From Methanothermococcus thermolithotrophicus DSM 2095 (GTDB lineage: Archaea; AGJL01; Methanococci; Methanococcales; Methanococcaceae): a stretch of 64,000 nucleotides of DNA. The stretch covers positions 1,558,902-1,622,901 of the forward strand of contig NZ_OX296583.1 in NCBI RefSeq assembly GCF_946463545.1, in the 5' to 3' direction. A program made the translations under genes and the position numbers. The stretch's first letter is position 1, and every line of letters begins with the position of its first letter. Under the pieces are notes generated by a model. The model saw only the letters and a program-made list of their open reading frames with translations, searched no databases and was not told where the DNA came from. Positions 19,106 to 61,309 of this stretch are shown here, piece after piece.

Positions 19106-19444
19106 TATAGTATCGGACATAACAAACTTAACACTACCAGTCATAAAGCTGACTAAAATATACTTCTCGACAAAAACCTTTGGTTTAGTTGAATAATCTA
19201 CGATTATTCAACTTCCCCGCAACTATGTTGCGGTGGATTGTGAGTCTCGACAAAAATTCTTCGAATTTTTGTGAGTCAGCAAATTTCTTTGAAATTTGCT
19301 TCGACAGCGAATCTTCGATTCGCTTCGACTTAACGAAGTTAAGAAGTATCCGGTTTTGGAATCGGAGTGAGCGAAGCAAACGGAGAGTTACAAAAATTAC
19401 TTCGTAATTTTTGTTCAATCAAAACCTTTTTCTAAAAGGTTTTG
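19106..19444. repeat. Palindrome array 1
   Basis: A gene-free stretch of ~460 bp with a head motif TATAGTATCGGACATAAC (from 19106) and at least nine perfect palindromes, each with a 3-nt centre. These are 19174-19186; 19187-19213 (arms AGTTGAATAATC); 19217-19233 (CCGCAAC); 19250-19272 (ACAAAAATTC); 19278-19300 (AGCAAATTTC); 19306-19324 (AGCGAATC); 19329-19343 (CTTAAC); 19390-19414 (ACAAAAATTAC) and 19420-19444 (CAAAACCTTTT). Spacers reuse TCGAC, GAGTC and GCGAAGC. Open frames across it on both strands are by-products of the palindromes, not genes. Confidence 0.85.
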
Positions 19445-19542
19445 CTTTATACTATAATATCATGTTCTTTTTTATATCTTTAATTCTAATTTAATATGGA
19501 TTTATATTTATCGTAATATTATATTTTGGTGTTTGTTCAATA

Positions 19543-20094
19543 GTGGATGGTGAAACTTTGGAAAATGTTAAATCTGAACTAAAGGATTTATTAAAAGATT
19601 GTAAAAAACTATGTATAATGGGTGTTGGTAACACTATGAAAGGGGATGATGGGTTTGGTGTGTATGTTGTCGAAAAATTAGCTGAGTACTATAATAAAAT
19701 TGGTTACGATATAAACCCAAATAATGAGGTAAATATCATAAATGATAATCTGGTACTTCTGAACTGTGGTGTAGTTCCTGAGAATTTTACAGACGTTTTA
19801 AAAAAGGAAAAACCATCCCATATTTTAATATTGGACGCCGCACTGATGGGGGAAAAACCTGGAACTTTAAAGATTGTTGATAGTGAAGATATTGCAGAAG
19901 TTGGTTTTTCGACACATGCATTACCTATGACCATAATTATTAAATACATAACCCACTATATAAATACAGAAATATTAGTGATTGGAATAGAACCTAAAAA
20001 CCTTGACTTTGGAGGGTCTTTATCCAATGAAATCAAAGAAAAAGCTTCTCAATTTACTAAGGTACTTATTAATATAATATCCAATCGAAATTGA
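19543..20094 (+). CDS. Hydrogenase maturation protease (HycI/HybD family)
   Basis: A 183-residue endopeptidase that trims the C terminus of [NiFe]-hydrogenase large subunits after nickel insertion. Visible features are MGVGNTMKGDDGFG (nickel-binding acidic residue), ILDAALMGEKPGT (second acidic ligand) and STHALPM (histidine ligand). Start choice is between GTG 19543 and TTG 19558; the latter follows GGTGA at 19549-19553. It is probably specific for an F420-reducing or energy-converting hydrogenase, which cannot be decided here. It stands alone between a palindrome array and lonB. Confidence 0.82.
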   Translation: MDGETLENVKSELKDLLKDCKKLCIMGVGNTMKGDDGFGVYVVEKLAEYYNKIGYDINPNNEVNIINDNLVLLNCGVVPENFTDVLKKEKPSHILILDAALMGEKPGTLKIVDSEDIAEVGFSTHALPMTIIIKYITHYINTEILVIGIEPKNLDFGGSLSNEIKEKASQFTKVLINIISNRN

Positions 20095-20165
20095 TTAACC
20101 GAAAATAAAGATTTAGTTCAATAAATTCTTTTTTAATTTAATTAAGATCATAGGTGTAAATAAAT

Positions 20166-22241
20166 ATGTTTTCAGTGAAATTTAAAACTACAGAAGAATT
20201 GCCTGAACCGTCTCCAAGATTAATTGACCAGGTTATCGGTCAAGATGAAGCTGTAAAAATAGTGTTAAGCGCAGTTAAGAACAAGAGACATGCATTATTA
20301 CTGGGGGATCCTGGTGTCGGTAAATCCATGATGGTTAAGGCTGTTGGAGAACTTTTAGAAAAATCCGATGAATTCACTCCATATACCATATTGGCGAGAC
20401 CTAACTTAAAAAACCCTGAGAAACCAATAGTGGAGTTAGTTGAAGGGCTGTATGTTGAAGAGAATAATGAAGAGAGACCAAAAATTACCAAACAGCCACC
20501 AAATATCCTAACATTATTCATTCTAATGATTGCATTTACTGCCATAACATCATACTTAATGAAGGGACTTTCAGAAACTAAAATGTTGGGAGTAATAGCA
20601 ACTGTAGCTATAGTAGGTTCATTATTGGCTTTTGTAGTACTTTTCCTTGGAATATTTGGGGCTACAAAAGCTTCAATGCCTAATACAGTGAATCCTGCAG
20701 ATTTAAAACCTGTAGTATTGTATGAATGCAAGAAAAAACCACTTATAAGGGCCAGTGCATACAACGTAACTAAACTCTTAGGGGATGTTAAACACTGTCC
20801 ACTTGGAGGAAAGCCACCACTAGGCACCCCGCCACATAAAAGGATAATTTTAGGGGCCATATATGAAGCTCACAAGGGTATTCTCTATGTGGACGAGATA
20901 AAAACCATGCCCCTGGAGGTTCAAGATTATATATTAACCGCATTACAGGATAAACAACTCCAAATAAGTGGTAGAAATCCAAATTCAAGCGGTGCCACTG
21001 TAGAGACTAACCCGATACCTTGTGACTTTACGTTGATAATGTCTGGAAACATGGATGATGTAAGTAACTTAAGAGCTCCGTTACTTGACAGGATAGATTA
21101 CAAAATAGTTCTAAAGAATAAAATGGAAAACAACCAGAAAAATAGAGATATACTATTACAATTCATAGTTCAAGAGATAAAAAACAACAACCTAAATCCA
21201 ATGACCTATGAAGCATGCTGTGAAATTGTAAGACTGGCTCAGCTCTTATCAGGTTCAAAGGATAAACTTACCTTAAGGTTGAGGAAATTATCAAACATAA
21301 TAAAAATGGCAAATGATATTGCAGTGGGCAAAGAAATAAAAGAAATAATCGAAGAAACTGCAGAAAAAGAAAAAGAGAAAGAATTAGAAATAAAAAGAGA
21401 AGTAGTTATTGATAATAGGGAAGCGAGTGGCAGTAGCAAAAAACTAAAAAACATAGTAGGAATGCTACATAAGAAAAAAGAAAACATAGAAACATCTATT
21501 GAAAAAATCAAAAGCGATAAAGTTTCAGAAATAAAAAAATCCGAAGAGAAGAAAATATACATTGAACGTGAACACATATTGGAAGTCATAAGGAGTGGAG
21601 TATACAGCATGTCCAAACAGGTTGCCATCGACTACCTTACAAACTTTAAGAGATACAAGCACATTACTCCAAACGATGTACCAAAAGTTGGAGTTATACA
21701 CGGTCTTGCAGTTCTTGGAACAGATGGACTAGGCGATGTAACTAAAATAATAACTCAAATTGTAGATTCAAAGAATCCAGGAACTCACCTGTTAAACATA
21801 AGTGGGGACCTTGCAAAACACAGTATATCATTAGCTTCGGCATTATCTAAAAAACTAGTATCTGAAGGAAAGTTGCCTATTGAAACCAAAGATAGCATTG
21901 ATTTAACTTCAAAGGAAATATACATCCAATTCAGTCAATCGTACTCAAAAATAGATGGAGACAGTGCAACAGCAGCAGCATGTTTAAGTATAATTTCTTC
22001 ACTCTTGGATATTCCGCTAAAACAGGACTTTGCAATAACTGGAAGTTTGGATTTAAACGGTAACATACTTGCAATTGGCGGAGTAAACGAGAAAATAAAC
22101 GCTGCTAAAGAATATGGATTTAAAAGAGTTATAATCCCAGAATCAAATATGATAGATGTTATAGATATCGAAGGAATTGAAGTAATCCCTGTTAAAACAC
22201 TTGATGAGCTAATACCACTGGTATTTGAATTAGATAACTAA
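20166..22241 (+). CDS. lonB: Membrane-anchored archaeal Lon protease (LonB)
   Basis: A 691-residue ATP-dependent protease. The AAA+ module has Walker A GDPGVGKS near residue 45 and Walker B GILYVDEIKTM. Two transmembrane helices (ILTLFILMIAFTAITSYLM and IATVAIVGSLLAFVVLFLGIFG) are inserted between them, as in LonB. A charged coiled-coil region precedes the C-terminal S16 peptidase domain, with catalytic Ser in DGDSATAA and Lys in VNEKINAAKEYG. No intein interrupts the gene. The order lonB-fucA-UPF0147 matches Methanocaldococcus jannaschii, as I recall it. Confidence 0.95.
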   Translation: MFSVKFKTTEELPEPSPRLIDQVIGQDEAVKIVLSAVKNKRHALLLGDPGVGKSMMVKAVGELLEKSDEFTPYTILARPNLKNPEKPIVELVEGLYVEENNEERPKITKQPPNILTLFILMIAFTAITSYLMKGLSETKMLGVIATVAIVGSLLAFVVLFLGIFGATKASMPNTVNPADLKPVVLYECKKKPLIRASAYNVTKLLGDVKHCPLGGKPPLGTPPHKRIILGAIYEAHKGILYVDEIKTMPLEVQDYILTALQDKQLQISGRNPNSSGATVETNPIPCDFTLIMSGNMDDVSNLRAPLLDRIDYKIVLKNKMENNQKNRDILLQFIVQEIKNNNLNPMTYEACCEIVRLAQLLSGSKDKLTLRLRKLSNIIKMANDIAVGKEIKEIIEETAEKEKEKELEIKREVVIDNREASGSSKKLKNIVGMLHKKKENIETSIEKIKSDKVSEIKKSEEKKIYIEREHILEVIRSGVYSMSKQVAIDYLTNFKRYKHITPNDVPKVGVIHGLAVLGTDGLGDVTKIITQIVDSKNPGTHLLNISGDLAKHSISLASALSKKLVSEGKLPIETKDSIDLTSKEIYIQFSQSYSKIDGDSATAAACLSIISSLLDIPLKQDFAITGSLDLNGNILAIGGVNEKINAAKEYGFKRVIIPESNMIDVIDIEGIEVIPVKTLDELIPLVFELDN

Positions 22242-22314
22242 TATAAAACCTTTCTTTTATTTTATTCAAATGTAAATGTGTTATAAATTATCAAATCTCT
22301 TTTTTGGTGGTACT

Positions 22315-22863
22315 GTGGATTTAAAAGCTTTTGTGGATATTTGTCATAAACTCTACGATAGAAAATATGTTGTAGGAAGCGGAGGTAATGTTAGCGTAAG
22401 GCATGATGATTTGATATATACAACTCCAACAGGCTCATGTCTTGGGTTTTTAAAAGAAGAAGATATATGCATAGTAAATTTAAATGGGGAAATTATCAAA
22501 GGAGCTCCTACTTCAGAGACCAACATGCACTTAAAGATTTATCAGAATAGAAAAGATGTAAATGCAATAGTCCATACTCATTCCCTACACTCTACAGCAC
22601 TATCAATAGTGGATAAAAAAATAGAACTATTGACTCCTGAAGCAGAAATATTTTTAAAAAAAATAGGTTACGTGGACTATTTACCCTGCGGAAGTTTAGA
22701 ACTGGCAGAAGAAGTTTCAAAAAGAAATGAGGATGTTATAGTCCTGAAAAATCATGGAATTGTAACCCTTGGAAAAAATTTACTTGAAGCCTATGTTAAA
22801 ACAGAGGTTACCGAAGAAGTTGCTAAATTAAATTATCTTGTAAATTATTTAAAAAGAATTTAG
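22315..22863 (+). CDS. fucA: Class II aldolase, L-fuculose-1-phosphate aldolase type
   Basis: A 182-residue zinc aldolase. Motifs are [22 protein letters not shown], the metal-binding [13 protein letters not shown] and the later KNHGIVTLG histidine. In methanogens this enzyme has been linked to lactaldehyde formation for coenzyme F420 biosynthesis. GTG 22315 is the preferred start (GGTGG at 22306-22310) because it begins the conserved [18 protein letters not shown]; the in-frame ATG at 22276 would add 13 atypical residues and has no ribosome site. Confidence 0.87.
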
Positions 22864-22886
22864 TTATGTATTTAACTATAAATTAT

Positions 22887-23165
22887 TTATTCATTTTTTA
22901 TTGTTTCCAATTCACTTACAATACTCCATATTTGGGTTCTTGTATGTAGTGGCATGTTTGGATCATCACTAATGTCGTCTAAGTATTGAATTGCAGTAGC
23001 ACTTCTAACGATGTATTCATCATTTTCATTCAATACTGACTCTTTTGCCTTTTCAGCAGCAGCCCTTATATTTCTAGGTACTGTTGTATCGTTAATTATT
23101 TCATCGAGCATAAAAGCAATGTTGTTTAATTTTTGTTCAGGGGTCATCTTCTTAGGGCCGAACAT
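22887..23165 (-). CDS. UPF0147 family protein
   Basis: A 92-residue helical protein of the archaeal UPF0147 family, recognised by KMTPEQKLNNIAFMLDEIINDTTVPRNIRAAAE and DDISDDPNMPLHTRTQIW. The function is unknown. ATG 23165 follows GGTGGTGAT on the minus strand; the longer frame to 23213 is unlikely. It converges with fucA (24 bp between stops). Its upstream region has inverted arms CCATCTCCCA (23210-23219) and TGGGAGATGG (23292-23301) around a possible minus-strand TATA box. Confidence 0.85.
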   Translation of the reverse strand: MFGPKKMTPEQKLNNIAFMLDEIINDTTVPRNIRAAAEKAKESVLNENDEYIVRSATAIQYLDDISDDPNMPLHTRTQIWSIVSELETIKNE

Positions 23166-23357
23166 ACTATCACCACCATGTTTTGGATTCCTATTGACAT
23201 TTAATATGGCCATCTCCCATATATCGAAATTTTTATGTTTAAATAAAATTACTTGTATTTATTAGTTAAGTGAATGTACACCACTATTGGTTGGGAGATG
23301 GACCGTAAATACCACTACATTTTAATTATCATATACCGTATTTAAATATTAACCTTA

Positions 23358-24086
23358 TTATTTTTTATTTTTATTTTTTAAGGTTTTAACTTTTTTAGGG
23401 TTACCTACAAGAACTTTGTCTACTTTTGTAAACACTCCGTTTTCCACAACTCCTGGAATGTTATTTAATTCTTTTTCTGTTTCTTCTGGATCTTTTATGT
23501 CTATAAATACATCTATTATCATGTTTCCATTGTCTGTGATAATCGGGCCCATTTTCTTAGATGCCATTCTTATTGAAGGAGCTGAATTTCTTTTTAACAG
23601 TTCATTTAAAACAGTCGAGTATGCAAAAGGAACAACTTCAAGAGGTACTGGCATTTTTTCCCCTAAATTATCTACTACTTTATTTTCATCCACTATTACT
23701 ACGAACTCTTTTGCATAGTAATCTATAATTTTTTCCTGGGTGTGGCATCCACCGCCACCTTTAATAAGGGCGAGCGTTTTCTTATCGACCTCATCAGCTC
23801 CATCAATTGCAATGTCTATTTCATCACACTGATCCAAAGAAACCAGTGGAATCCCATATTGTATGGCAAGCATTCTTGATTCAAAAGAAGTCGGGATTCC
23901 AAAAATATTTAATTCTTCATCTATAATTCTTTTTCCAAGTTCTGCTATGAATATATTTGCCGTAGAACCTGAGCCTAAACCTACTATCATGTCGTCCTTT
24001 ACCAACTTTACAGCTTCCTGAGCTACTCTGGTTTTTGAAGCCTCCAATTCAGATAAACCTTCATTTCCAACTGAACTTTTACGCAT
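23358..24086 (-). CDS. rpiA: Ribose-5-phosphate isomerase A
   Basis: A 242-residue enzyme interconverting ribulose-5-phosphate and ribose-5-phosphate. Family motifs are VGLGSGSTANIFI, GIPTSFES, IDGADEVD, LIKGGGGCHTQEK, and VPFA. ATG 24086 with GAGGTG upstream (minus strand) is preferred over an in-frame GTG at 24101. In this lineage ribose-5-phosphate is needed for nucleotides and cofactors. The C-terminal lysine tail (KTLKNKNKK) is slightly extended. Confidence 0.95.
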   Translation of the reverse strand: MRKSSVGNEGLSELEASKTRVAQEAVKLVKDDMIVGLGSGSTANIFIAELGKRIIDEELNIFGIPTSFESRMLAIQYGIPLVSLDQCDEIDIAIDGADEVDKKTLALIKGGGGCHTQEKIIDYYAKEFVVIVDENKVVDNLGEKMPVPLEVVPFAYSTVLNELLKRNSAPSIRMASKKMGPIITDNGNMIIDVFIDIKDPEETEKELNNIPGVVENGVFTKVDKVLVGNPKKVKTLKNKNKK

Positions 24087-24241
24087 ACATACACACCTCA
24101 CTATATATTTTGTAATTTGTAGTAATTAATTTTGATTAGGTTAAATTTTGATAATCTAAGCGTTGTTTTTGTAGAATAAAAAAGAGATATAAAAAAATTA
24201 TTGTATTATATATAAAAGAGTATACTACAATACTCACGACT

Positions 24242-24522
24242 AAAGCCGTTGGCTTTCGGAGTGAGCGAAGCAACGTTATAAAAACCCAACGGTTAAACAA
24301 AAACTCTTCGAGTTTACGAAAACCTTCGGTTTTCGAATCCAGTAGGTTTTGTAGCCCACCACTATCACCGAGCGAAGCGAAGGTGAGCTACATCCACCGC
24401 AACATAGTTGCGGGGAGGTTGAATAATCGTAAATTATTCAACCAATCCGAAGGATTTGTTCAATCGTGGTAGTTTTCAAAACCCTTAACGGGTAAAGATA
24501 TAAAATCACGAAGTGATTTTAT
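24242..24522. repeat. Palindrome array 2
   Basis: The ~465-bp gene-free region between rpiA and the FKBP gene carries palindromes with 3-nt centres. They are 24242-24256 (AAAGCC), 24301-24315 (AAACTC), 24317-24335 (CGAAAACC), 24397-24413 (CCGCAAC, the stem of array 1 in opposite orientation), 24417-24443 (GTTGAATAAT, one arm base mutated), 24444-24456 and 24500-24522 (ATAAAATCAC). The spacer GAGTGAGCGAAGC recurs from array 1. Arms GTAGC/GCTAC enclose a GCGAAGC-rich block at about 24351-24392. Confidence 0.8.
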
Positions 24523-24551
24523 TTAATCTCGGCGGAATGTTATAATGATAA

Positions 24552-25007
24552 TTATTCGACAACTTCAATAATTTTAATTGTAAATACTAAATCTTTTCCT
24601 GCAAGTTCATGGTTAAAGTCTAAAGTTACCTCATTATCTGTAACTTCGGTTATTGTAGCAGGAATTCCTTCTGCAAGGATTACCATTCCTTCTTCAGGTT
24701 CAAAATCAGCTTCTTTAAAAGCATCTCTTGGTATTTTCTGTATTAACATTTCATTTCTGTTACCGTATGCTTTCTCTGCAGGGATTTTTACGGTTTTTTC
24801 GTCCCCGACTTCCATGTCTAAAACAGCTTCTTCAAAACCTTGAATCAACTGACCTTCTCCTACAACGAACTCTAGAGGTTCATATTCTCTATCAGGCGCG
24901 TATATTCCAGCTTCTTTTGCTACCTCTTCTATGGAAGTGTCAAAGACATCTCCACTTTCAAGTTTACCTATGTAGTCTACTTTTATTTTAACTCCTTTAT
25001 CTACCAA
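24552..25007 (-). CDS. FKBP-type peptidyl-prolyl cis-trans isomerase with insert-in-flap domain
   Basis: A 151-residue archaeal FKBP (SlyD-like) with folding-helper activity. Motifs are [53 protein letters not shown] and the IF domain up to [15 protein letters not shown] 25007 after GGATGTGAT is the likely start, giving a protein beginning MVDKGV. From memory this equals the sequence of the structurally studied FKBP of M. thermolithotrophicus, which is why I name that species. It is divergent from mch. Confidence 0.95.
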
Positions 25008-25224
25008 AAAAATCACATCCTTATGTCGATATCATAACTCAAACTGTATTGGTATATATATTTTATTATTGCTACCACGATTAATGGATTTATTACATGT
25101 TAATAACTACATGTTAAACGTTAAATGAGTATGAACTTATTCAACATGTCGAATCAAATCAAAAATTATAAAAATTAAAAAATATCTAGATTTAAAGGTA
25201 TAATAAAATCAAAAAGGTGGAATA

Positions 25225-26199
25225 ATGGTCAGTGTAAACTTGACTTCTTTGTCCATAGTTGAAGAAATGATACAAAGAAAAGAAGACTTGAACATAGAAG
25301 TTAAGAAATTAGAAAATGGTGCTACCGTTCTTGACTGTGGTGTTAATGTAGCAGGAAGCTTTGAAGCTGGTAAATTATTTACAAAAGTATGTTTAGGTGG
25401 TCTTGCTCACGTTGGAATAAGTATATCAGGTTCATTAGCTGATGAATTAGTTTTACCTTCAGTTAAGATAAAAACATCACACCCTGCAGTTGCTACATTA
25501 GGAGCTCAGAAAGCAGGTTGGAGTGTCAAGGTAGGGAAATACTTTGCAATGGGTTCAGGACCTGCAAGAGCTTTAGCCTTAATGCCTAAAAGCACATACG
25601 AAGAAATTGGTTACGAAGACGATGCAGATGTTGCTGTTTTATGTTTAGAAGCAAGCCAATTACCTGATGAAAATGTTGCAGACTACGTTGCAGAAAAATG
25701 TGGTGTAGATGCTGAAAAAGTTTACCTCTTAGTAGCTCCTACAGCATCAATGGTTGGATCCATACAAATCAGTGGTAGAGTTGTAGAAAACGGAACCTAC
25801 AAAATGTTAGAAGCTTTACACTTTGATGTAAAAAAAGTTAAATTTGCAGCAGGTATTGCTCCAGTAGCTCCAATAATTGGTGACGATTTAGCAATGATGG
25901 GTTCCACAAACGATATGGTACTCTACGGAGGAAGAACCTTCTATTACATAGAAAGCGACGAAAACGACGATGTTGAAGCATTATGCAAAGCTTTACCATC
26001 CTGTTCATCAGAAGGTTACGGAAAACCATTCTTAGATGTATTCAAAGAAGCAAACTACGACTTCTACAAAATAGACAAAGGAATGTTTGCCCCAGCAGTT
26101 GTTACAATTAACGACATGAGAACAGGTAAATTAGTATCCTATGGAAAAATGAACATAGATGTACTTAAAAAATCATTAGGGTTTAAAGAATTAGAATAA
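25225..26199 (+). CDS. mch: Methenyltetrahydromethanopterin cyclohydrolase
   Basis: A 324-residue enzyme of the CO2-to-methane pathway that converts formyl-H4MPT to methenyl-H4MPT. Characteristic sequences are [57 protein letters not shown] and [18 protein letters not shown] lies before ATG 25225. The codon choice (GCA/GTT/TTA rich, regular) and strong SD fit high expression. An AT-rich promoter with a TATA-like AATTATAAAAATT lies near 25161-25180, and a strong T-tract follows the gene. Confidence 0.97.
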
Positions 26200-26211
26200 G
26201 TCTCATACTTA

Positions 26212-26283
26212 TACCTACTATTACCTACTATTCCTTTTATTTTATTTTTTATTTTTAATCGTTCTTTTTCCTTTTTCTTTTTT
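26212..26283 (+). terminator. Long T-rich terminator after mch
   Basis: Successive T runs (ATTCCTTTTATTTTATTTTTTATTTT, then TCTTTTTCCTTTTTCTTTTTTAG) start 10 bp after the mch stop. This is the expected archaeal U-rich termination signal for a highly expressed gene. Confidence 0.6.
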
Positions 26284-26386
26284 AGTTAAAGAATAATATT
26301 AAAATACTGTATAATGCATACACATGATATAAACAATAAATAGGTATTATTGAATAAAAATCTAAAATTTCCAATTTTCCAATTTT

Positions 26387-26622
26387 CCAATCTCGATTGG
26401 ATAACCATAGTGTAAGACAAAACCTTTTAAAAAATCGAAGCGAATCCAAAGGATTCGCTGATCGAGACAAATTTCAAAGAAATTCGCTGACTCACAAAAA
26501 TTCGAAGAATTTTTGTCGAGAGGTTTTGGATTCAAAACCAATACACAACCTTGCTTCGCTCGGTAGTGTCTTTTAGTCGGTTTTATAACACATTAGTATA
26601 GTTTGTTATGTCCGACACTATA
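26387..26622. repeat. Palindrome array 3 (inverted relative to array 1)
   Basis: Between mch and the DUF47 gene. Units are CCAATC-TC-GATTGG (26387-26400), AGCGAATCC-AAA-GGATTCGCT (26439-26459), a mutated AATTTC-AAA-GAAATT unit (26470-26484), ACAAAAATTC-GAA-GAATTTTTGT (26494-26516) and GGTTTTG/CAAAACC (26522-26539). The head motif, on the minus strand TATAGTGTCGGACATAAC..., occupies 26600-26622. Read on the minus strand, unit order and spacers (CTCGAC, TGAGTC) match array 1. The head motif overlaps the likely promoter of the phosphate-transport pair. Confidence 0.8.
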
Positions 26623-26641
26623 ATCATGTAGGGGTGGTAAA

Positions 26642-27274
26642 TTGTCTATGTTCTTTTTTAAACGAAAGCCTGAAAAAGAAGTTATCGATCTTCTAAAAAA
26701 GCATATTTCATTATCTATAGAAGGTATCGAGTTATTGAATGAATATATTGAATACAGGGGATCTGATAAATTGGACGATATATTGAACAAAATTATAGAG
26801 CTCGAAAAAGAAGGGGATGAAATAAGAAAAAAAGCCATATTTAATCTTTATAATGCATTTTTACCAAGTATGAAGAGAGAACTAAATTATTCAATTGAAC
26901 TTTTAGATGAAGTCCTTGACAGCATTAAACATGGAGCCATGCTATACAATTTGATGACCTTTGATTTAGATGAAAATATAAAAGAAAAATGTAAATTAAT
27001 ATTGAATATATCGTCAAAAATGCTTGATTCCCTAAATAAGATAATAGATGTATTTGAAAACGGAGGGGAATTTAAAGAGCACATTAAAAATATAAAAATG
27101 GGGGAGGAAGATATTGACGATATCCATCAGGAAATTTACAGGTATATGGTTGGTATGGAGATAAGCTCCTTTTGGGTAGGGAAGCTCATGAGTGATTTTG
27201 TGGATATGATTACAGGTATAAGCGACTTTATAGAAAATATAGCCGATGAATTTCAAATAATATATTTAAAATAA
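26642..27274 (+). CDS. DUF47/PhoU-like protein (Pit accessory)
   Basis: A 210-residue all-helical protein of the DUF47 (PhoU-like) group: KPEKEVIDLLKKHISLSIEGIELL, IIELEKEGDEIRKKA and a C-terminal ISDFIENIADEFQ. Members bind metal clusters and modulate the adjacent low-affinity phosphate transporter. TTG 26642 has GGGGTGG just upstream; ATG 26648 is the alternative. Its stop TAA (27272-27274) is immediately followed by the permease frame, implying translational coupling. Confidence 0.85.
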   Translation: MSMFFFKRKPEKEVIDLLKKHISLSIEGIELLNEYIEYRGSDKLDDILNKIIELEKEGDEIRKKAIFNLYNAFLPSMKRELNYSIELLDEVLDSIKHGAMLYNLMTFDLDENIKEKCKLILNISSKMLDSLNKIIDVFENGGEFKEHIKNIKMGEEDIDDIHQEIYRYMVGMEISSFWVGKLMSDFVDMITGISDFIENIADEFQIIYLK

Positions 27275-29690: not shown

Positions 29691-29718
29691 AAAAAACCAC
29701 TATTTTGGAGGAATAGGT

Positions 29719-52394: not shown

Positions 52395-52871
52395 ATGCTA
52401 ACTCATGTAGATGAAAAAGGAGTAAAAATGGTAGATGTTTCTAAAAAAGATGATGTAGAGAGAACCTGCGTTGCAAAGGGATGTATAAAACTAAAACCAT
52501 CAACAATAGAAGCTATTGAAAAGAAAAAAGTTATAAAGGGAGATGTTCTAACTACTGCCCAAATTGCAGGTATAATGGCCGTGAAAAAGACTTCAGAATT
52601 AATTCCAATGTGCCATCCCCTACCAATAACTTCGGTAAATGTTGATTTTGAAATATTTGAGGATAAAATTGGTGTAGAGGTTAAGGTAAAAACCACATAC
52701 AAAACAGGAATAGAAATGGAGGCCTTAACAGGCGTAAGTGTGGCACTTTTAACTATTTTGGATATGGTTAAAGCTATTGAAAAAGACGAAAATGGACAGT
52801 ATCCAGAAACTGAGATATTTGGAATAAAGGTTTTAGAAAAAATAAAGGGTGAAGCTGTCCCAAAGCAATAA
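52395..52871 (+). CDS. moaC: Cyclic pyranopterin monophosphate synthase MoaC
   Basis: A 158-residue enzyme of molybdopterin/tungstopterin synthesis acting with MoaA. Family sequences [40 protein letters not shown] and [21 protein letters not shown] are evident. GTGAT precedes ATG. It is needed for formate or formylmethanofuran dehydrogenase cofactors. It converges with tfrB, with a T-rich gap of 25 bp. Confidence 0.95.
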
Positions 52872-52896
52872 GTTAATATTTTTTTAGTTATTTTTT

Positions 52897-54447: not shown

Positions 54448-54482
54448 AGTTTCACGGTTTTATTTTTAAGTTATTGTATATA

Positions 54483-55412
54483 TTAAAATATTCCAGTTAA
54501 TTTTACTATGAATATAAAGTATATCGCAAGTAGTATCAATCCTTCCAATCTATGTATTTTATTTAACTTACTTAATTTAATTTTACTTTTATTCATGAAT
54601 AAGACCATAAGTGTTACCAGAATTATATTTATTGCCAGTTCAAACTTTACAGAAGGTAAATCGGTAATTACGGATGAAAGAGCTAGAGCTCCACATATAT
54701 TGGCCATGTTACTTCCTACAACATTTCCAAGGATTATATCCCCTAATTTCCTTCTTGCTGCAGAAATCGAAACTGCGAGCTCAGGGAGGGAAGTACCAAC
54801 TGCAACTAGTGTAAATCCAATAATCTTTTCTGAGATTCCTAAGTAGCTTGCAATGTTTCTTGCACCTTCAACAAATAGGTGACTTCCAAAAACAACTGAA
54901 GCCAACCCAACTACAAGAAAAACAACGGCTTTAACTGTACTTATGGATGTATCGACTTCTTCTTCACAAGCCCCTCCATTCTTAATGGTGTGCTTTAGGT
55001 AATAAAATAACAATAGGAGAAGCAAAATGCCATCTATTCTTGAAAATCCGTTGTATCCAAGTATGGTTATTATTATCGTGAATATTAAATACAAATAGCT
55101 GTTGGTTATAATTGGTTTACTCTTTACCATAACCGGATATATTAAAACACTAATACCCAATACAAGCCCAATGTTTGCTATACAGCTACCTAAGGCGTTT
55201 CCTATAGCAATATCTGGCGAATTTGTATATGCCGCATAGATGCTTGTAACGATCTCAGGTAGGGAAGTTCCAAATGCCACTACCGTAGCTCCAATTACAA
55301 AATTTGAAATATCTAGATATTTTGCTATTCTGGAGCTACCCACTATAAACCAGTCACTTCCATAGGATAACAGTATCAAACCAGATAAAAGTAAAATTAT
55401 TCCATCTATCAT
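54483..55412 (-). CDS. Na+/Ca2+ exchanger (CaCA family, NCX_Mj-like)
   Basis: A 309-residue, ten-helix antiporter with two inverted alpha repeats: GATVVAFGTSLPEIVTS ... GNALGSCIANIGLVLG and GFTLVAVGTSLPELAVS ... GNVVGSNMANICG. It exchanges Na+ for Ca2+, as shown for the M. jannaschii homologue, which also sits next to tfrB as I recall. The upstream 180 bp carries a minus-strand promoter region bounded by an 11-bp inverted repeat (55441-55451, 55567-55577). Confidence 0.92.
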   Translation of the reverse strand: MIDGIILLLSGLILLSYGSDWFIVGSSRIAKYLDISNFVIGATVVAFGTSLPEIVTSIYAAYTNSPDIAIGNALGSCIANIGLVLGISVLIYPVMVKSKPIITNSYLYLIFTIIITILGYNGFSRIDGILLLLLLFYYLKHTIKNGGACEEEVDTSISTVKAVVFLVVGLASVVFGSHLFVEGARNIASYLGISEKIIGFTLVAVGTSLPELAVSISAARRKLGDIILGNVVGSNMANICGALALSSVITDLPSVKFELAINIILVTLMVLFMNKSKIKLSKLNKIHRLEGLILLAIYFIFIVKLTGIF

Positions 55413-55440
55413 GTTTACACCTAAAAAAAATAGAAAATAT

Positions 55441-55577
55441 AGTGGTGTGCATTACTTACTTAACTAACGAATACGGGTATTTTATTTAATCACAAACATA
55501 CATTGTTATTAAATGGGCTTATTTATTAAACTATTCAATTATAATATATTGATTAGTTTATTGAATTGCACACCACT
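55441..55577. repeat. 137-bp segment bounded by 11-bp inverted repeats
   Basis: AGTGGTGTGCA at 55441-55451 and TGCACACCACT at 55567-55577. Inside, AACTATTCAAT and ATTGATTAGTT form a near-perfect inverted repeat around a TATA-like AATATATTATAATTG read on the minus strand. It spans the likely exchanger promoter. It could be an operator pair or a tiny mobile element. Confidence 0.5.
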
Positions 55578-55592
55578 CTAAATAAAATTGAA

Positions 55593-56510
55593 TTAATAGT
55601 ACAAATTGTATGATTTAAACTTTTCTGCCATATTCATGGTTTCTCCAAAACCCTTGCCAATACCGTATCCTAAGTTGTACACTACACCAAATAAACCTAA
55701 AGAATCTGCTGGATTGTATTCAACAGTTTTTGGAGAACTTATGTTTGCCAGCCTAGCAGCTGCATTAATGGCGTCTTCCTCGGTTCCTACCTCGTCCACT
55801 AAACCAACTTTTTGAGCATCCGATCCACTGTATATCTTACCATCGGCTACCTTTAAAGTTTCGTTTAGTGTCATGTTTCTATTTTCTGCAACCCATTTAA
55901 CAAAGTCTAGGTAGGTTTCATTTATCATTTTTTCCAAGTATGCCTTTTCTTCAGGAGTCATTGGTCTGTATGGTGACCCTATGTCTTTATATTCCCCGGC
56001 CTTTATAACTGTTGCATTTACACCGAGTTTTTCCATTAAACCATAATAATGAACAATATCCATCCTTACCCCAATACTACCTACAATAGAGTGCTTTTCA
56101 GCTACGATGTAATCAGTAGAAGCTGCTGCCATGTACGAACCAGATGCTCCTAAAGTTTCAATGTATGCCACAACGGTCTTTTTTTCAGAGACTTCCTTTA
56201 TCTTTCTTGCAAGTTTCTCACTTGCTATAACTTCTCCACCTGGTGAATTAATCCTTAAAATCACCGCATCAATATTGTCGTTATTTTCGGCTTCTTCCAA
56301 TAAATTGATATAGTCATTTACATCAGGTTGAATCTCACCAAATAATCCTGAATCCTCAGTCTTTGAAACTATCATATCGTCAAGATTTATAACGGCAATG
56401 TTTCCGTCCCCAAAATCTGATTCAGACGACAATATCATTAAAATGCCGCCAAGTATCAATGCAATAACCGCTACAAAGGCTATTAACGAGAACGCATATA
56501 TTTTCTTCAT
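55593..56510 (-). CDS. sppA: Signal peptide peptidase SppA-type protease
   Basis: A 305-residue membrane serine protease (S49). A single N-terminal helix (IYAFSLIAFVAVIALILGGILMI) anchors an external domain. The catalytic Ser is in LGASGSYMAA and the Lys in IKAGEYKDIGSPYRPMT, and LRINSPGGEV is also characteristic. It degrades residual signal peptides. Its length matches short archaeal SppA. It has its own transcript, with a palindrome group upstream at 56548-56622. Confidence 0.93.
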   Translation of the reverse strand: MKKIYAFSLIAFVAVIALILGGILMILSSESDFGDGNIAVINLDDMIVSKTEDSGLFGEIQPDVNDYINLLEEAENNDNIDAVILRINSPGGEVIASEKLARKIKEVSEKKTVVAYIETLGASGSYMAAASTDYIVAEKHSIVGSIGVRMDIVHYYGLMEKLGVNATVIKAGEYKDIGSPYRPMTPEEKAYLEKMINETYLDFVKWVAENRNMTLNETLKVADGKIYSGSDAQKVGLVDEVGTEEDAINAAARLANISSPKTVEYNPADSLGLFGVVYNLGYGIGKGFGETMNMAEKFKSYNLYY

Positions 56511-56547
56511 ACCAACACACCAACATTATACGTCGTTTTTGTCGTTT

Positions 56548-56622
56548 AGTTGAATAATCATAGATTATTCAACTCTCGATGAAAATCTTTGATTTGCTTC
56601 AATTCCTGTAGCTTTGCTACAG
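56548..56622. repeat. Palindrome group 4
   Basis: AGTTGAATAATC-ATA-GATTATTCAACT (56548-56574) has exactly the 12-bp stem of array 1 (19187-19213) with a different centre. AAATC-TTT-GATTT (56583-56595) and CTGTAGC-TTT-GCTACAG (56606-56622) follow, with CTCGATG and GCTTC spacers. It lies between sppA and the OB-fold gene. Confidence 0.8.
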
Positions 56623-56640
56623 TAGATTGACGAAATATTT

Positions 56641-57258
56641 TTAAAGTATTCTATAGTTACCTGGAGATGGCTCATATACTTCTCCATCCTCTTTTAATTC
56701 GGAGAGCAAATCATCTAGCTCATCCTCATCTATCTTTAATTTTTCTAAAAGTTCTTCATATGAGATCTCATCATTTTCTCTTATTATATCCAATATTAAG
56801 TCTTTAGTATCAAATTCGCCATAAAGATCTTCTAAAACTTCATTTTCTATTGATTTTTCAGCATCCATGGCTCCTTCGTAGGATGGTGTTTCTTCATCCT
56901 TTAGGTATTTTCTTGTTTTTTCTATTTCTATATTTCTTAATTCCCTCCATTTCTCCCTATTTTCGTTTCTCTTTTTATAAATTTCCAGGGCGATGTATTT
57001 CTGACCTTCATACTCTCCGACTCTGCCTATTACATCTAAAAAATCTCCATCATTAATATCTGTAGATTTATTTTCAAAATCTTTAACTAATATACCATCT
57101 AATTCAAATGTTGTAATGTTTGAAATATTGACATTTTTAACTTCCCCCAGTACTCTTACCCTGTGTATTCTTTTATTTTCTATTGTAATTGTTTTTCCAA
57201 CAACTTCATTTTCCAAGAACTCTTCAGGATGAATCTTATAAGCCACATATCTCATCAT
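56641..57258 (-). CDS. RPA-associated OB-fold protein (COG3390-like)
   Basis: A 205-residue protein with an N-terminal OB fold (MRYVAYKIHPEEFLEN, HRVRVLGEVKNVNIS, DFLDVIGRVGEYEGQKYIALEI), an acidic linker and a C-terminal winged helix (DLILDIIRENDEISYEELLEKLKI). This is the architecture of archaeal proteins that accompany replication protein A and resemble RPA32. The gene for RPA itself is not in the window. GGTGA lies before the tandem ATG ATG start at 57258/57255. Confidence 0.78.
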   Translation of the reverse strand: MMRYVAYKIHPEEFLENEVVGKTITIENKRIHRVRVLGEVKNVNISNITTFELDGILVKDFENKSTDINDGDFLDVIGRVGEYEGQKYIALEIYKKRNENREKWRELRNIEIEKTRKYLKDEETPSYEGAMDAEKSIENEVLEDLYGEFDTKDLILDIIRENDEISYEELLEKLKIDEDELDDLLSELKEDGEVYEPSPGNYRIL

Positions 57259-57341
57259 TTTTTCACCAATTTAATTTAAACATTTATACAATATAACACA
57301 GCCAGCATATGGTTTACATTTAATTACTTCTAACTTTTTAT

Positions 57342-57770
57342 CTATTGTTCTTCCAGCTCATCCTCATCTACAATTACACCGTTTTTGGTTCTAGGTGCAA
57401 TATCCTTTATTATCTTCATTAAGTCCTCCCCTTCTTCTGCAATTATTTTTATTTTCATTCCACCGTGGATATCTTCATCGAAATTTAGGTTATTTACAAA
57501 TGCCGCCTGTTTGTTTATTTTGAATGTTGTTAAATATGGTTCAGAATGTTTCTTTCTTATACCTTTTTCTAGTATCATTCTTGCAGTATCTAGTATGGCC
57601 TGACTTCTTATAAGTTCTTTAAACCTACTTATGTCAGTGGCTTCCCCTAGAATATATTTTTCATCTTCTTCTATCGCAATTTTTACATCGGGAAAAATGT
57701 TAACCATAGCCTTTTTGATTTTTTCTATGTCTTCCGTTGGTTTTATTCTGGTTTTTATTTTAATAATCAT
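57342..57770 (-). CDS. UPF0201 family protein
   Basis: A 142-residue archaeal protein of UPF0201 (COG1325): IIKIKTRIKPTEDIEKIKKAMVNIFPDV and ILDTARMILEKGIRKKHSEPYLTTFKINKQAAFV. Homologues have a ribosomal-L5-like fold and are suspected RNA-binding proteins. GGTGAT precedes ATG. It is 17 bp downstream of the aminotransferase gene, so probably co-transcribed. Confidence 0.85.
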   Translation of the reverse strand: MIIKIKTRIKPTEDIEKIKKAMVNIFPDVKIAIEEDEKYILGEATDISRFKELIRSQAILDTARMILEKGIRKKHSEPYLTTFKINKQAAFVNNLNFDEDIHGGMKIKIIAEEGEDLMKIIKDIAPRTKNGVIVDEDELEEQ

Positions 57771-57787
57771 GGTATCACCTAATCAAG

Positions 57788-58912
57788 TTAGAATAATTTC
57801 TCCATTATTTCCAGTGCTTTTTCTATGTCCTCATACTTTGTAGCATACGAGAATCTAACATTATTCTCCCCGTTTTTACCAAAGGCAATACCTGGAACGC
57901 ATAATATTTTATTCTCAATGAGTTTTTGAGCAACTTCCATTCCAGAGCCGTGTTCACCAACATTTGGAAATACATAGAAAGCCCCTTCAGGAATTACAAC
58001 ATCAAAGAAGTTTTTCAAACCATTTACTATTAAGTCCCTTCTTCTCCTAAATTCCTTTACCATATCTTCAACACACTTTTGACTACCTTCTAAAGCAGCC
58101 AGAGCTCCGTACTGGGCAAAGGATGTAGCACATGCAAAACCGTACTGATGTACTTTGACCATGTTTTCGATTATATCGTATTTCTCATTTAAATTGTCGT
58201 TAACTGCCAAATAACCTATTCTCCAGCCAGTCATTGAGTGGGATTTTGAAAATCCATTTATTAAAATACAGTTATCGGTAAATTCCATAGGAGAGTGGTG
58301 TTTTTTGTCGTAAATTATTTTTTCGTAAATTTCGTCTGAAATTATAACAATATCCTTATCTTCGGCTATTTCACAAATTGCCTTTATCTCTTCCTTATCC
58401 ATGACCCTTCCAGTTGGATTGGATGGTGAATTTAATATGATACACTTTGTTTTATCGGATATACTGTTTTTAATTTCTTCAATATCTAACTTAAACTCCT
58501 CATCAAGGTTCATTGGAACTATTTTCCCTTCGTAGAGCTGAGTTAGTGATTTATATGAAACAAAACCTGGATCTGGAATCAAAACTTCGTCCCCCTTGTT
58601 TACAAGAGCCATGACCGACAACATAAGAGCTTCAGAAGCTCCGCATGTAACCATAATATTGTTTAAATCTACATCCAAGTTGTTGTCATTTTTTAACTTT
58701 TTACATATGGCTTCCCTAAGTTCTGGAATTCCATTGTTTGGGGTGTAATGGGTTTTACCTTCATCTAAAGCTTTTTTTGCAGCATCTATTACATGTTTTG
58801 GAGTATCAAAATCTGGTTCTCCTATCCCTAAATTTATCGAGCTCTCAGTAGCCATGTTGAATATTTTTCTTATCTCTGAAGGTTCTATATTTTTACATCT
58901 GTTTGAAATCAT
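57788..58912 (-). CDS. Class I/II PLP-dependent aminotransferase
   Basis: A 374-residue fold-type I aminotransferase, aspartate-aminotransferase-like. Motifs are LGIGEPDFDTPKHV, YTPNNGIPELREAI, LNSPSNPTGRV, SDEIYE and the PLP lysine in INGFSKSHSMTGWRIGY. Substrate (aspartate, aromatic or LL-diaminopimelate relatives) cannot be fixed by reading. ATG 58912 is favoured because GGTGAG abuts the upstream ATG 58918. Confidence 0.9.
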   Translation of the reverse strand: MISNRCKNIEPSEIRKIFNMATESSINLGIGEPDFDTPKHVIDAAKKALDEGKTHYTPNNGIPELREAICKKLKNDNNLDVDLNNIMVTCGASEALMLSVMALVNKGDEVLIPDPGFVSYKSLTQLYEGKIVPMNLDEEFKLDIEEIKNSISDKTKCIILNSPSNPTGRVMDKEEIKAICEIAEDKDIVIISDEIYEKIIYDKKHHSPMEFTDNCILINGFSKSHSMTGWRIGYLAVNDNLNEKYDIIENMVKVHQYGFACATSFAQYGALAALEGSQKCVEDMVKEFRRRRDLIVNGLKNFFDVVIPEGAFYVFPNVGEHGSGMEVAQKLIENKILCVPGIAFGKNGENNVRFSYATKYEDIEKALEIMEKLF

Positions 58913-59020
58913 AAACATCTCACCGTAAATATTATGAAAATTATAAAAGCTATGAAACTATACGCTTCATAAAATAGTATGATTAAAAGATATATTAAAT
59001 TTTGTAGAAAAATAATTATT

Positions 59021-59515
59021 TTAATTTATTTCTTTTAAATAGTTTTTAACAATATTTTCAAGTTCTTTATTATATTTTAAGGACAATACATATTTAGATA
59101 TTGGATATTTTCTAATTAAATAAATATAATCTCCATTCTTTTTATATCCTTCAAAATTTTTCCAATATTCCATCCCTCCGTTTAAAAGGATACCTTTATC
59201 ACAAATATCTATTTTTCTCATCCTTAGTTTTTCAAAACTAAATACGATTAATAGCAGGATTATAGTATAAATTGACATAGATATTATGAAAATTGATGAA
59301 ATTGCAAAGAGCACCATAATAGCTAAAAACTCCTTATTTTTCCTTAAATTATACTTCATATTTTCCAACATGTCAATTTCTGTTGAATAAAGGACTTTCC
59401 ACGATTTCTTAGCTTTTTTATAATTTCGATAATAAATAATGCCCACAATTGTAGGTATTGCAAAACATAAAAAAATTATCGATAGTAAAAATACATCTAT
59501 ACCAAACAAATCCAT
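59021..59515 (-). CDS. Membrane protein with C-terminal PH-like region, paralogue 1
   Basis: A 164-residue protein with an N-terminal helix, two central helices (LAIMVLFAISSIFIISMSIYTIILLLIVF) and a C-terminal soluble domain KIDICDKGILLNGGMEYWKNFEGYKKNGDYIYLIR ... LENIVKNYLKEI. The last part is shared with the gene just upstream (59528-60055), so the two are tandem paralogues. The form resembles methanogen DUF5673-type proteins (PH-like domain on a membrane anchor); the function is unknown. GGGAG precedes ATG 59515. Confidence 0.65.
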   Translation of the reverse strand: MDLFGIDVFLLSIIFLCFAIPTIVGIIYYRNYKKAKKSWKVLYSTEIDMLENMKYNLRKNKEFLAIMVLFAISSIFIISMSIYTIILLLIVFSFEKLRMRKIDICDKGILLNGGMEYWKNFEGYKKNGDYIYLIRKYPISKYVLSLKYNKELENIVKNYLKEIN

Positions 59516-59527
59516 AATTCTCCCAAT

Positions 59528-60055
59528 TTAATCCATTTCTTTTAAATAATTCTTAATAATATTTTCGAGCTCACCTTCATTTAATAAATAAATATCGCCG
59601 ACCACCCAAGCGATATATTTTGGTCTCAATACAACATACTCCCCCTTTTTTAAATATCCTTTAAAATTATTCCAACACCAAACAAGTTTTTTATTACTAA
59701 GAATACCTTTATCGCTTATTTGTACTTCAATAAATTTTTTCTTATTGACAGCATGTTCAAGAACCAATATCGAAAATACTAGAATTACTACTGCTCCAAA
59801 ATTAAGCACAACTGACAAAACAACCTCAGATCCATGATAATACTCCATAATATTTCTAATAAGTATGATCAAATTAAATATCAATGCAAAATAAATAATC
59901 TTTCTATTTGATTTTAAGTTAAGTTTTCTGTTCATTTTGGCATTGTACAATATGTTAGCTGTTTTAGAGATTTTTTTAAATTTTTGTATTTTAACAATAA
60001 TATATATAATTAAAAATAACAACACAACTACTGCAAACAAAATATAAATTTCCAC
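59528..60055 (-). CDS. Membrane protein with C-terminal PH-like region, paralogue 2
   Basis: A 175-residue protein: N-terminal helix (IYILFAVVVLLFLIIYIIV), two central helices and a C-terminal domain QISDKGILSNKKLVWCWNNFKGYLKKGEYVVLRPK ... LENIIKNYLKEMD. It aligns with the neighbour at 59021-59515 while the membrane part has diverged. It starts at GTG 60055 after GGTGGT. Divergent from the Ehb-like pair; the shared upstream region holds a 24-bp perfect palindrome. Confidence 0.62.
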   Translation of the reverse strand: MEIYILFAVVVLLFLIIYIIVKIQKFKKISKTANILYNAKMNRKLNLKSNRKIIYFALIFNLIILIRNIMEYYHGSEVVLSVVLNFGAVVILVFSILVLEHAVNKKKFIEVQISDKGILSNKKLVWCWNNFKGYLKKGEYVVLRPKYIAWVVGDIYLLNEGELENIIKNYLKEMD

Positions 60056-60129
60056 AATACCACCGTTCTATTTACCCCATTCTTTGAATATTTTTTAGAT
60101 GCTATTTCAATAAATATTTATATGTAAAA

Positions 60130-60153
60130 ATTATAATGATTAATCATTATAAT
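60130..60153. promoter_or_regulatory. 24-bp perfect palindrome, candidate operator
   Basis: ATTATAATGATT (60130-60141) is followed directly by its reverse complement. A TATA-like TAAATATTTATATG lies at 60111-60124, so the dyad would cover the transcription start of the Ehb-like genes (start codon 60197). This is the layout expected for a repressor site. Confidence 0.5.
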
Positions 60154-60196
60154 ATTGATTTTATCATCTTGTTAATATTATTTATATGGTGGAACA

Positions 60197-60463
60197 ATGC
60201 TCGAAGATATCGTTTTAATACTTGCTTCAATAGGCATAATTCTCGCCTCAATAAGGCTTTGGATTGAAAAAGACGGAAAAAACATGGTCTATGCAAGGTT
60301 GCATATCGCAGGAGTTATTGACATAGCTTGTATTGTTATACTTCTGGTTTTAAATCAACCATTATTGGCTTTAATTTACTTAGTACTCTGTCCATTTGCA
60401 GCTCACGCAATTGCCAACGCCGATTATTACGATGAGCTAAACAAGAATAGGGTGGAAAAATGA
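60197..60463 (+). CDS. MnhG-like membrane subunit, probably of energy-converting hydrogenase B (Ehb)
   Basis: An 88-residue protein with three membrane helices and the MnhG pattern YARLHIAGVIDIACIVILL and CPFAAHAIANADYYDE. In methanogens such Mrp-antiporter-like pieces are parts of Ehb, which drives low-potential ferredoxin reduction by an ion gradient for biosynthesis. Ehb genes are scattered in some Methanococcales, which fits an isolated pair. It is probably EhbC by gene order in other methanogens, but I am not certain of the letter. The last codons overlap the next start (ATGA). Confidence 0.72.
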   Translation: MLEDIVLILASIGIILASIRLWIEKDGKNMVYARLHIAGVIDIACIVILLVLNQPLLALIYLVLCPFAAHAIANADYYDELNKNRVEK

Positions 60464-60702
60464 GCATATACTTGGAAATATTTATAATGGCCATTGTATT
60501 GATGTCATACATCGGAGCTCTAATTCAAAAGGACTTGATTAAATGTGTAGTTTTAACGGGTTTGGGCGGTTTAGGACTTGCGTATATTTTTAGTTCGTTA
60601 CTTGCTCCAGATGTTGCATTAACTGAAGCAATACTTGGTGGGGCTGTTTTACCTGCATTTTTTGCATTTACGGTTAGAAGAACCCAGAGAATGGATGAAT
60701 GA
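60460..60702 (+). CDS. DUF4040/MbhD-like membrane subunit, probably of Ehb
   Basis: An 80-residue, three-helix protein with DLIKCVVLTGLGGLGLAYIFSSLLAPDVALTEAILGG, the DUF4040 (MbhD/MnhB-associated) core. It overlaps the MnhG-like gene by 4 bp. It is probably the neighbouring Ehb subunit (EhbD in order), completing a two-gene Mrp-like module. No catalytic hydrogenase subunits are in the window. Confidence 0.7.
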   Translation: MSIYLEIFIMAIVLMSYIGALIQKDLIKCVVLTGLGGLGLAYIFSSLLAPDVALTEAILGGAVLPAFFAFTVRRTQRMDE

Positions 60703-60768
60703 ATTTAACATTTTAAAAAATAAATAATAGGGCCATATAAGAAATAAAATTATAAAAATAGCTTTATT

Positions 60769-61242
60769 TTATTTTTTCTCGTTATAGATTCCTTCGTACT
60801 CTCCGTTAACTTCGTTACATTCAACAAAAACTATTTGAGCAATTCTGGCGTTTTTATAAACTGTAATAGGATTTAAAACATGCATTAAATAGGTTGGATA
60901 ACCTTCGTATCCCGGGTCATGAACTGCGGTGTAAAGTGTTGCCCCCATTCTCAACAAGCTACTTCTTGGATAGGCAAAACCTCCTGCATTGTTAGGTACC
61001 TTTATCCTATCTGCAACCTTTACTGCATAAATTCCAACACCTAAATCGATTTTTTCATCCTTTTCAGAGTCAAAAATTTCAACATGTTCAGGGAGCTCTC
61101 TTTTTTCATTTGTAAAATCGATGGTTCCTTTCCCAACAATCTTGTAGATTTTTCCAACTCTTAAATCGATTCCACACTGCTGGATTTGAATATCATCTTT
61201 AACTTCAATAAAATTTTTTGATATTTTTGCTCCGATGATCAT
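60769..61242 (-). CDS. dut: Deoxyuridine triphosphatase of the Dcd/DUT trimer family
   Basis: A 157-residue enzyme hydrolysing dUTP to dUMP. Motifs are QIQQCGIDLRVGKIYKI, GFAYPRSSLLRMGATLYTAVHDPGYEG and NARIAQIVFVE. The short length without extra deaminase features resembles the M. jannaschii dUTPase next to its GlmU-like gene. ATG 61242 is fixed by a perfect GGAGGA ribosome site; the longer frame to 61293 runs into the palindrome between genes. Confidence 0.87.
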   Translation of the reverse strand: MIIGAKISKNFIEVKDDIQIQQCGIDLRVGKIYKIVGKGTIDFTNEKRELPEHVEIFDSEKDEKIDLGVGIYAVKVADRIKVPNNAGGFAYPRSSLLRMGATLYTAVHDPGYEGYPTYLMHVLNPITVYKNARIAQIVFVECNEVNGEYEGIYNEKK

Positions 61243-61265
61243 AATTTTCCTCCTTTGATTTCTTG

Positions 61266-61309
61266 ACGAAAACCAAAGGTTTTCGTGAGTCAATAATCAC
61301 CTTGTGATT
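61266..61309. repeat. Palindrome group 5, overlapping the end of the GlmU-like gene
   Basis: ACGAAAACC-AAA-GGTTTTCGT (61266-61286; same stem as array-2 unit 24317-24335) and AATCAC-CTT-GTGATT (61295-61309), joined by GAGTC and followed by CTCGAG. The second unit contains the stop codon of the upstream gene. Confidence 0.75.

Follow-up and report, generated by a model that had tools for sequence, protein, structure and literature searches.

The chromosome of the archaeon Methanothermococcus thermolithotrophicus DSM 2095 carries clusters of short, perfect palindromes with three-base centers, which raises the question of what these sequences are and how they came to be scattered over the genome. 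We examined it in a stretch of 64,000 bp (the window; bases 1,558,902-1,622,901 of a single contig of 1,706,496 bases), whose genes include those for methenyl-H4MPT cyclohydrolase and HycI, marks of a methanogen. A first-pass annotation of the window had described one dispersed family of modular palindromes with an almost invariant center, organized like the repetitive extragenic palindromic (REP) sequences and bacterial interspersed mosaic elements (BIMEs) of bacteria. The palindromes in fact make up several families in two layers and not a single repeat family. Layer 1 consists of gene-less miniature transposons, and layer 2 of mobile units of about 47-57 bp, each defined unit a pair of hairpins, that we call double-hairpin elements (DHE-1 to DHE-4) and that lie in the miniature transposons, in the stems of one another, between genes and, in relatives, within genes.

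The palindromes are far more frequent than in shuffled sequence. Eight with three-base centers and arms of at least 10 bp are present in the window, against 0.13 expected from dinucleotide shuffles. Genome statistics were taken from stretches covering about half of the chromosome; the first set of these was centered on known copies and so is biased, and an independent sample of 400 kb was drawn from the gaps between them. This sample holds 48 three-base-center palindromes with arms of at least 9 bp, against 5.6 in shuffled sequence, and 36 of the 48 lie outside long open reading frames (ORFs), which occupy 83% of it. Even centers with arms of at least 9 bp give counts of 5-11 in the same sample and no clear enrichment in the window, and the apparent enrichment of 5- and 7-base centers in the window is mostly due to the same hairpins being counted again. 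The clustering and the reuse of stems at distant sites that had been noted are also real: the array at 19.1 kb of the window, used as a query, has 79 matches on the chromosome, its own locus counted. Within the window every palindrome named in the first-pass annotation lies where it was placed: AGTTGAATAATC occurs at 19187 and 56548 (with a mutated form at 24417), CCGCAAC at 19217 and 24397, and ACAAAAATTC at 19250 and 26494; the stem CGAAAACC, found at 24317, returns at 61266 as part of a longer palindrome. The center is less uniform than "almost invariant" implies, since among 113 hairpins the closing pair and loop are CGAAG/CTTCG in 45, CAAAG/CTTTG in 20, TAGAA in 12, CGTAG in 6 and CATAG in 5, so that GAA/TTC or AAA/TTT accounts for about two thirds and other loops for the remainder. 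TCGAC and GAGTC, described as spacers, are for the most part the lower stems of hairpins, interrupted by one or two bulged bases, as in CTC(g)ACAAAAATTC-TTC-GAATTTTTGTGAG, where the bulge makes the two strands differ, and the third, GCGAAGC, forms a 2-bp stem around a GAA loop.

The arrays are dispersed and modular, as first described, but that description missed that two of them, at 19.1 and 26.4 kb, are miniature transposons with defined boundaries, that the mobile hairpins usually come in pairs and that the units are nested. The layer 1 elements have inverted ends ATAGTnnnnGnCAWAAC (ATAGTnnnnGnCATAAC and ATAGTnnnnGnCAAAAC on the two sides), and a genome-wide pattern search found that exact matches to this motif are mostly convergent pairs 69-350 bp apart. 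With inverted ends, no ORF, lengths below 600 bp and several copies, these elements have the properties of miniature inverted-repeat transposable elements (MITEs). Copy 1 (19107..19455, + strand, 349 bp, ends ATAGT...ACTAT flanked by T and A) holds the whole first array; it is defined by its convergent end motifs and by a near full-length relative with sharp ends at genome positions 1049306-1049662 (95% identity over 356 bp), besides which there are 77 more partial matches. Copy 2 (26407..26621, - strand, 215 bp) lies in reverse orientation, its convergent end motifs at genome positions 1585308 and 1585522. The flanking T...A is compatible with a TA duplication. The simplest copies, of 69 and 119 bp, consist of the ends, hairpin I (ATACCTACTCAAC-nnn-GTTGAGTAGGTAT; absent from the shorter of the two) and hairpin II (CAAAACCTTTT-nnn-AAAAGGTTTTG). 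Hairpin II, which both retain, is found in copy 1 beside the right end as CAAAACCTTTT-TCT-AAAAGGTTTTG (19420..19444, + strand). The relatives that we compared are the nearest genomes, from one archaeal family and order, presumably Methanococcales. Two from a sister genus (G009 and G004) have the same transposon ends without hairpin cassettes. A third, G006, has a second family of miniature transposons with ends TATAGTYGTGTGCG (187 matches to the motif TATAGTTGTKTGCGNA, one mismatch allowed), one copy of which carries a DDE transposase (DDE_Tnp_1; IS4/ISC1217-like) between matching ends. An extra single hairpin, GGCAAAACC-nnn-GGTTTTGCCGTATA, is inserted at several places of the G006 miniature transposon (L202-L221).

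Comparison of filled and empty copies of the same site shows the layer 2 units as exact insertions. DHE-3 (48 bp) is present between GGAATC and AAAACC at genome position 1003976 and absent at 1552724, with 29/30 and 30/30 flanking bases matching. DHE-4 (51 bp) lies within a hairpin arm of two copies, the one in the window and the one at 1049308, and is lacking at 1134839; between the window copy and 1134839 the right flank matches at 17/17 positions and the left at 14/17, all three mismatches being the loop. A four-hairpin cassette of 108 bp, CTCGAC...GCTTCGA, splits hairpin II of the copy at 592351, and a cassette with identical end points splits hairpin I at 7674 (114 bp; the left flank of the comparison copy has diverged). 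DHE-2 is found between the two hairpins of DHE-1, which turns a two-hairpin unit into one of four. Copy 1 in the window shows the same construction. Its host hairpin I (ATACTT...CTTAAC-GAA-GTTAAGAAGTAT; 19160..19349, + strand) is split with exact junctions by a multi-hairpin CTCGAC...GCTTCGA cassette of the family of DHE-1 and its relatives (19166..19328, + strand); when bases 19166-19328 are removed, ATACTTCTTAAC-GAA-GTTAAGAAGTAT is a perfect palindrome, related copies are unbroken at the same place, and in other copies cassettes with these end points lie elsewhere, in hairpin II. DHE-4 in turn (AGTTGAATAATC-TAC-GATTATTCAACT followed by TCCCCGCAAC-TAT-GTTGCGGTGGA; 19187..19237, + strand) sits inside the 3' arm of the hairpin ACAAAAACC-TTT-GGTTTTTGT. 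Copy 1 also contains DHE-3 (19364..19420, - strand), a GA-motif hairpin around GCGAAGC plus ACAAAAATTAC-TTC-GTAATTTTTGT, again between GGAATC and AAAACC, and copy 2 has a three-hairpin CTCGAC...GCTTCGA cassette (26435..26520, - strand) inserted in hairpin II (AAAACCT^TTTT). Outside these two transposons, a DHE-3 at 24366..24465 (TCACC-GAGCGAAGCGAA-GGTGA and ACAAATCC-TTC-GGATTTGT, read on the - strand) is interrupted by a DHE-4 (24393..24443, - strand) nested in the arm of one of its hairpins at GGATT^TGT (- strand), and the identical arrangement recurs at genome positions 984333-984420.

At none of the compared filled and empty sites is a target duplication required, and the junctions are exact; GATT often stands on both sides of DHE-3 sites, and may be the element's own end. 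A fixed short target is present on one side, DTT before DHE-3 and GGWTT before DHE-4 (within GGWTT^T). In G006, a member of another genus, the boundaries of DHE-4 are unchanged and its host is the miniature transposon of the other family. Most DHE-3 copies have TAG between their hairpins, as GTAG in many and ATAG in others, and no GTAG/CGTC-type tag was noted in DHE-1, DHE-2 or DHE-4. A DHE-3 pattern search of the relatives gave a clear signal in the present genome, G015, G009 and G004, and near-background counts elsewhere. At least seven DHE-3 copies of the present genome (L074, L075, L077, L080, L085, L195 and L200) end in approximately GGTGATT a few bases before an ORF start codon; their left flank also resembles a ribosome-binding site, so that the inserted DHE-3 replaces the site it interrupts. 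In G026 (L153) a DHE-3 lies inside an apparent open protein-coding frame.

Differences of the same kind separate near-identical strains. Contigs binned in a Bacteroidales metagenome-assembled genome (JASGMZ, G041; L120, L141, L142 and L143) are 99.95-100% identical to the present genome over thousands of bases and are misbinned contamination from a near-identical archaeal strain. At the 1103.9 kb locus the strain contigs have an extra 57 bp DHE-2 with flanks matching at 30/30 and 30/30 positions. At the 1009.5 kb locus three differences are seen: a DHE-3 of 47 bp and, in hairpin I, a two-hairpin DHE-1 of 57 bp are additional in the strain, and the loop is reversed, TTC for GAA; a strain contig also starts there within DHE-2-like hairpins that are absent at this place from the genome. 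The third locus (L141), where the contig stops inside the repeat, is the least secure against misassembly.

Loop reversal is common within the genome as well. In the same context the loop of hairpin I is TTC in 7 copies, GAA in 5 and AAA in 2, and the stems stay perfect; that of DHE-4 is TAC in 4, GTA in 3, ATA in 1 and TAT in 1 of the copies in the present genome, and TAC in 12, TAT in 5 and GTA in 3 in G006. No intermediate was found between GAA and TTC, which have no position in common, and adjacent bases differ by a few per cent. The arms change together. When DHE-3 sites are anchored on the neighboring hairpin alone, a perfect stem of 7 bp or more is present at 30 of the 40, in 20 different sequences, and the GA-motif hairpin shows the paired changes GC-GAA-GC, AC-GAA-GT, AT-GAA-AT, GT-GAA-AC and AC-GTA-GT. 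A published study reports that template switching between short inverted repeats homogenizes arms and inverts spacers, including ttc to gaa, the spacer inversions being seen only with arms longer than 9 bp (PMC8604942). Flipped loops and perfect arms are what DNA template switching would be expected to produce.

The first-pass annotation had pointed to a solitary Y1 transposase of the REP-associated tyrosine transposase (RAYT) type in this species. A profile search for the Y1 family (PF01797) found no match in the present genome, and the identical search was positive in five control genomes. Y1 genes are sporadic in the relatives; the Y1/IS605 elements of G003 and G004 carry a DHE-3-like double hairpin between their left-end hairpin and tnpA, at a site that is empty in G026. 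With two of these sporadic genes beside a related double hairpin, it is possible that a Y1 enzyme acted in the past or in trans. The present genome does have TnpB-like genes (1197855 and 512644; L255 and L256) without a TnpA (Y1) partner, and a DHE-3-type hairpin pair directly follows the stop codon of a 395-amino-acid TnpB-like gene, which fits a lost enzyme but would be no proof of one.

These findings are consistent with two nested layers of non-autonomous mobile DNA, MITE-like transposons and double-hairpin elements, whose history combines movement with template switching, and we consider this account probable, if well short of certain. A DDE transposase acting in trans presumably moves layer 1. 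Layer 2 inserts exactly beside short targets, with no detectable target duplication, and would move as single-stranded DNA, its paired hairpins recognized in trans by an IS200/IS605-type (Y1) transposase that is no longer encoded here. The lack of target duplication, the fixed target on one side and the paired, strand-asymmetric hairpins suggest such Y1-type transposition, and because neither the present genome nor G006 has a Y1 gene, the step is proposed without a present enzyme. Template switching during replication would flip the loops and keep the arms perfect, and recombination between copies probably aids spread within arrays. Several observations weigh against this account. The present genome and G006, the richest in DHE units among the genomes searched, are the very two that lack a Y1 gene; no homologue of the G006 DDE transposase was found in the present genome, an empty answer that proves little; next to the left end of IS605, the DHE-3-like unit may be no more than one further insertion into non-coding DNA; cassettes at one site in several miniature transposons could have been co-inherited or exchanged by gene conversion and not have arrived by separate insertions; and the strain differences were read close to the ends of contigs from a misbinned metagenome assembly and may reflect errors of short-read assembly.

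With IS605-linked units on one side and no Y1 gene in the two richest genomes on the other, we regard it as well supported that the double hairpins are mobile; the Y1 route for layer 2 is the leading mechanism, though unproven, and enzyme-free spread is its main rival. Under the latter, template switching and repair would copy hairpins into hairpins, and recombination between arrays would shift whole blocks. The inverted loops and perfect arms bear the mark of template switching, the missing Y1 genes are no difficulty, and the 1009.5 kb locus shows its three differences together, which is the pattern expected of a copied block. The boundaries, however, are exact and constant across hosts and genera even outside hairpins, as for DHE-4 in the G006 miniature transposon and DHE-3 in genes and in the IS605 element, which argues for recognized ends. 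We rate enzyme-free spread as a substantial but minority possibility. Rather unlikely is the reading that the minimal double hairpins form a self-propagating set of "parasites of parasites", which would prefer the stems of other mobile hairpins, be moved by, for example, a host structure-specific nuclease with template switching, with no need of a Y1 enzyme in the same cell, and cause compound arrays to grow and be remodeled faster than the genome diverges.

The paired stem changes could also be read as selection on transcripts, with the hairpins acting as structural or regulatory RNA (leaders, terminators or processing sites), and several DHE-3 copies, by ending in GGTGATT just before start codons, supply a ribosome-binding site. 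An RNA function would nevertheless tell the strands apart, and both loop orientations occur at one place; U-runs are absent at most sites, presence and absence between copies is exact, and an Rfam search of 18.9-26.8 kb gave no match up to E=1. We find this explanation very unlikely. Simple terminators were rejected because T-runs are missing at most sites, in agreement with the earlier judgment that the palindromes are not terminator-like.

The REP/BIME comparison holds for anatomy. As in those systems (PMC3116915, PMC3733652) and in REPINs, the mobile REP pairs of bacteria (PMC3116915), the hairpins are short, bulged, paired palindromes with tiny loops, modular, in both orientations and intergenic with some intragenic copies; the TAG of DHE-3, GTAG in many copies, may recall their tag, and some relatives have Y1 genes. 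The Y1 mechanism, in contrast, is unsupported in the present genome: PF01797 is absent here and in G006, there are several sequence-unrelated unit families where a REP system has one, units insert into each other and into miniature transposons and target other hairpins, and the GTAG tag is only partly matched. A true REP/BIME system with its RAYT encoded in this species is thus hardly credible. Chance palindromes of an AT-rich genome, a reading that some 7-8 bp palindromes at background level in the window might favor, are refuted by the excess over shuffled sequence given above and by identical units genome-wide.

Other known systems are matched in part. Like bacterial and archaeal MITEs, layer 1 has inverted ends that start at TA, is gene-less and 69-350 bp long, and has a DDE transposase between matching ends in a related genus; unlike them, it is densely filled with mobile hairpins of a second kind. 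The DHE units resemble IS200/IS605 elements and their gene-less derivatives in having two subterminal hairpins, no target duplication and a fixed short 5' target, and differ from them in that TnpA is missing from the present genome and the DHE target and its pairing with the ends are only putative. The nearest published description in style is that of the Volvox carteri organelle repeats (PMC2670323), in which one short palindrome with a loop of 3-5 nt sits inside another; close to it are the double-hairpin elements of Allomyces mitochondria as cited there (Paquin et al. 2000). By description, not by sequence, both share with our elements hairpins of 10-100 nt, loops of 3-5 nt, nested compound palindromes, both orientations and a mostly intergenic location; ours differ in lying on an archaeal chromosome and inside miniature transposons, and in their defined double-hairpin units, exact empty sites and documented loop inversion. 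The palindromic repetitive elements of Methanocaldococcus jannaschii (Suyama et al. 2005, as cited in PMC2229807) are likewise palindromic repeats, presumably from the same archaeal order, and are sometimes in genes, as is the DHE-3 of L153; judged from that cited description, DHE-3 could possibly be the same element. How short hairpins spread is an open question for REPs and organelle palindromes alike, and filled and empty copies at base resolution make it directly testable in one archaeon. The frequent loop inversions are a clear genomic record of template switching at short inverted repeats, and units that bring their own ribosome-binding site at one end bear on how such DNA is tolerated before genes.

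The remaining hairpins of the window, none assigned a strand, are ACAAAAATTC-TTC-GAATTTTTGT (19250..19272, basal stem CTC/GAG with a bulged G), AGCAAATTTC-TTT-GAAATTTGCT (19278..19300) and AGCGAATC-TTC-GATTCGCT (19306..19324) in the first array, and CGAAAACC-TTC-GGTTTTCG (24317..24335) and ATAAAATCAC-GAA-GTGATTTTAT (24500..24522) in the second. At 56548..56622 a DHE-4-type first hairpin, AGTTGAATAATC-ATA-GATTATTCAACT, is followed by further hairpins with no recognizable miniature transposon around them, and the single hairpin ACGAAAACC-AAA-GGTTTTCGT (61266..61286) lies at the upstream edge of a dUTPase-like ORF (60769-61293, - strand). Apart from the misbinned strain contigs, searches of other genomes and viral contigs by exact hairpin returned a lone hairpin in unrelated context, which we treated as chance or as local terminators. 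Mutually related viral contigs from IMG/VR (L145-L152) share an unrelated hairpin, ACAAAAACC-TAT-GGTTTTTGT, whose center is ATA, TAT or TAA. Finally, bases 60130-60153 of the window form the palindrome ATTATAATGATTAATCATTATAAT, which has 12 bp arms and no loop and is of a different kind from the family described.

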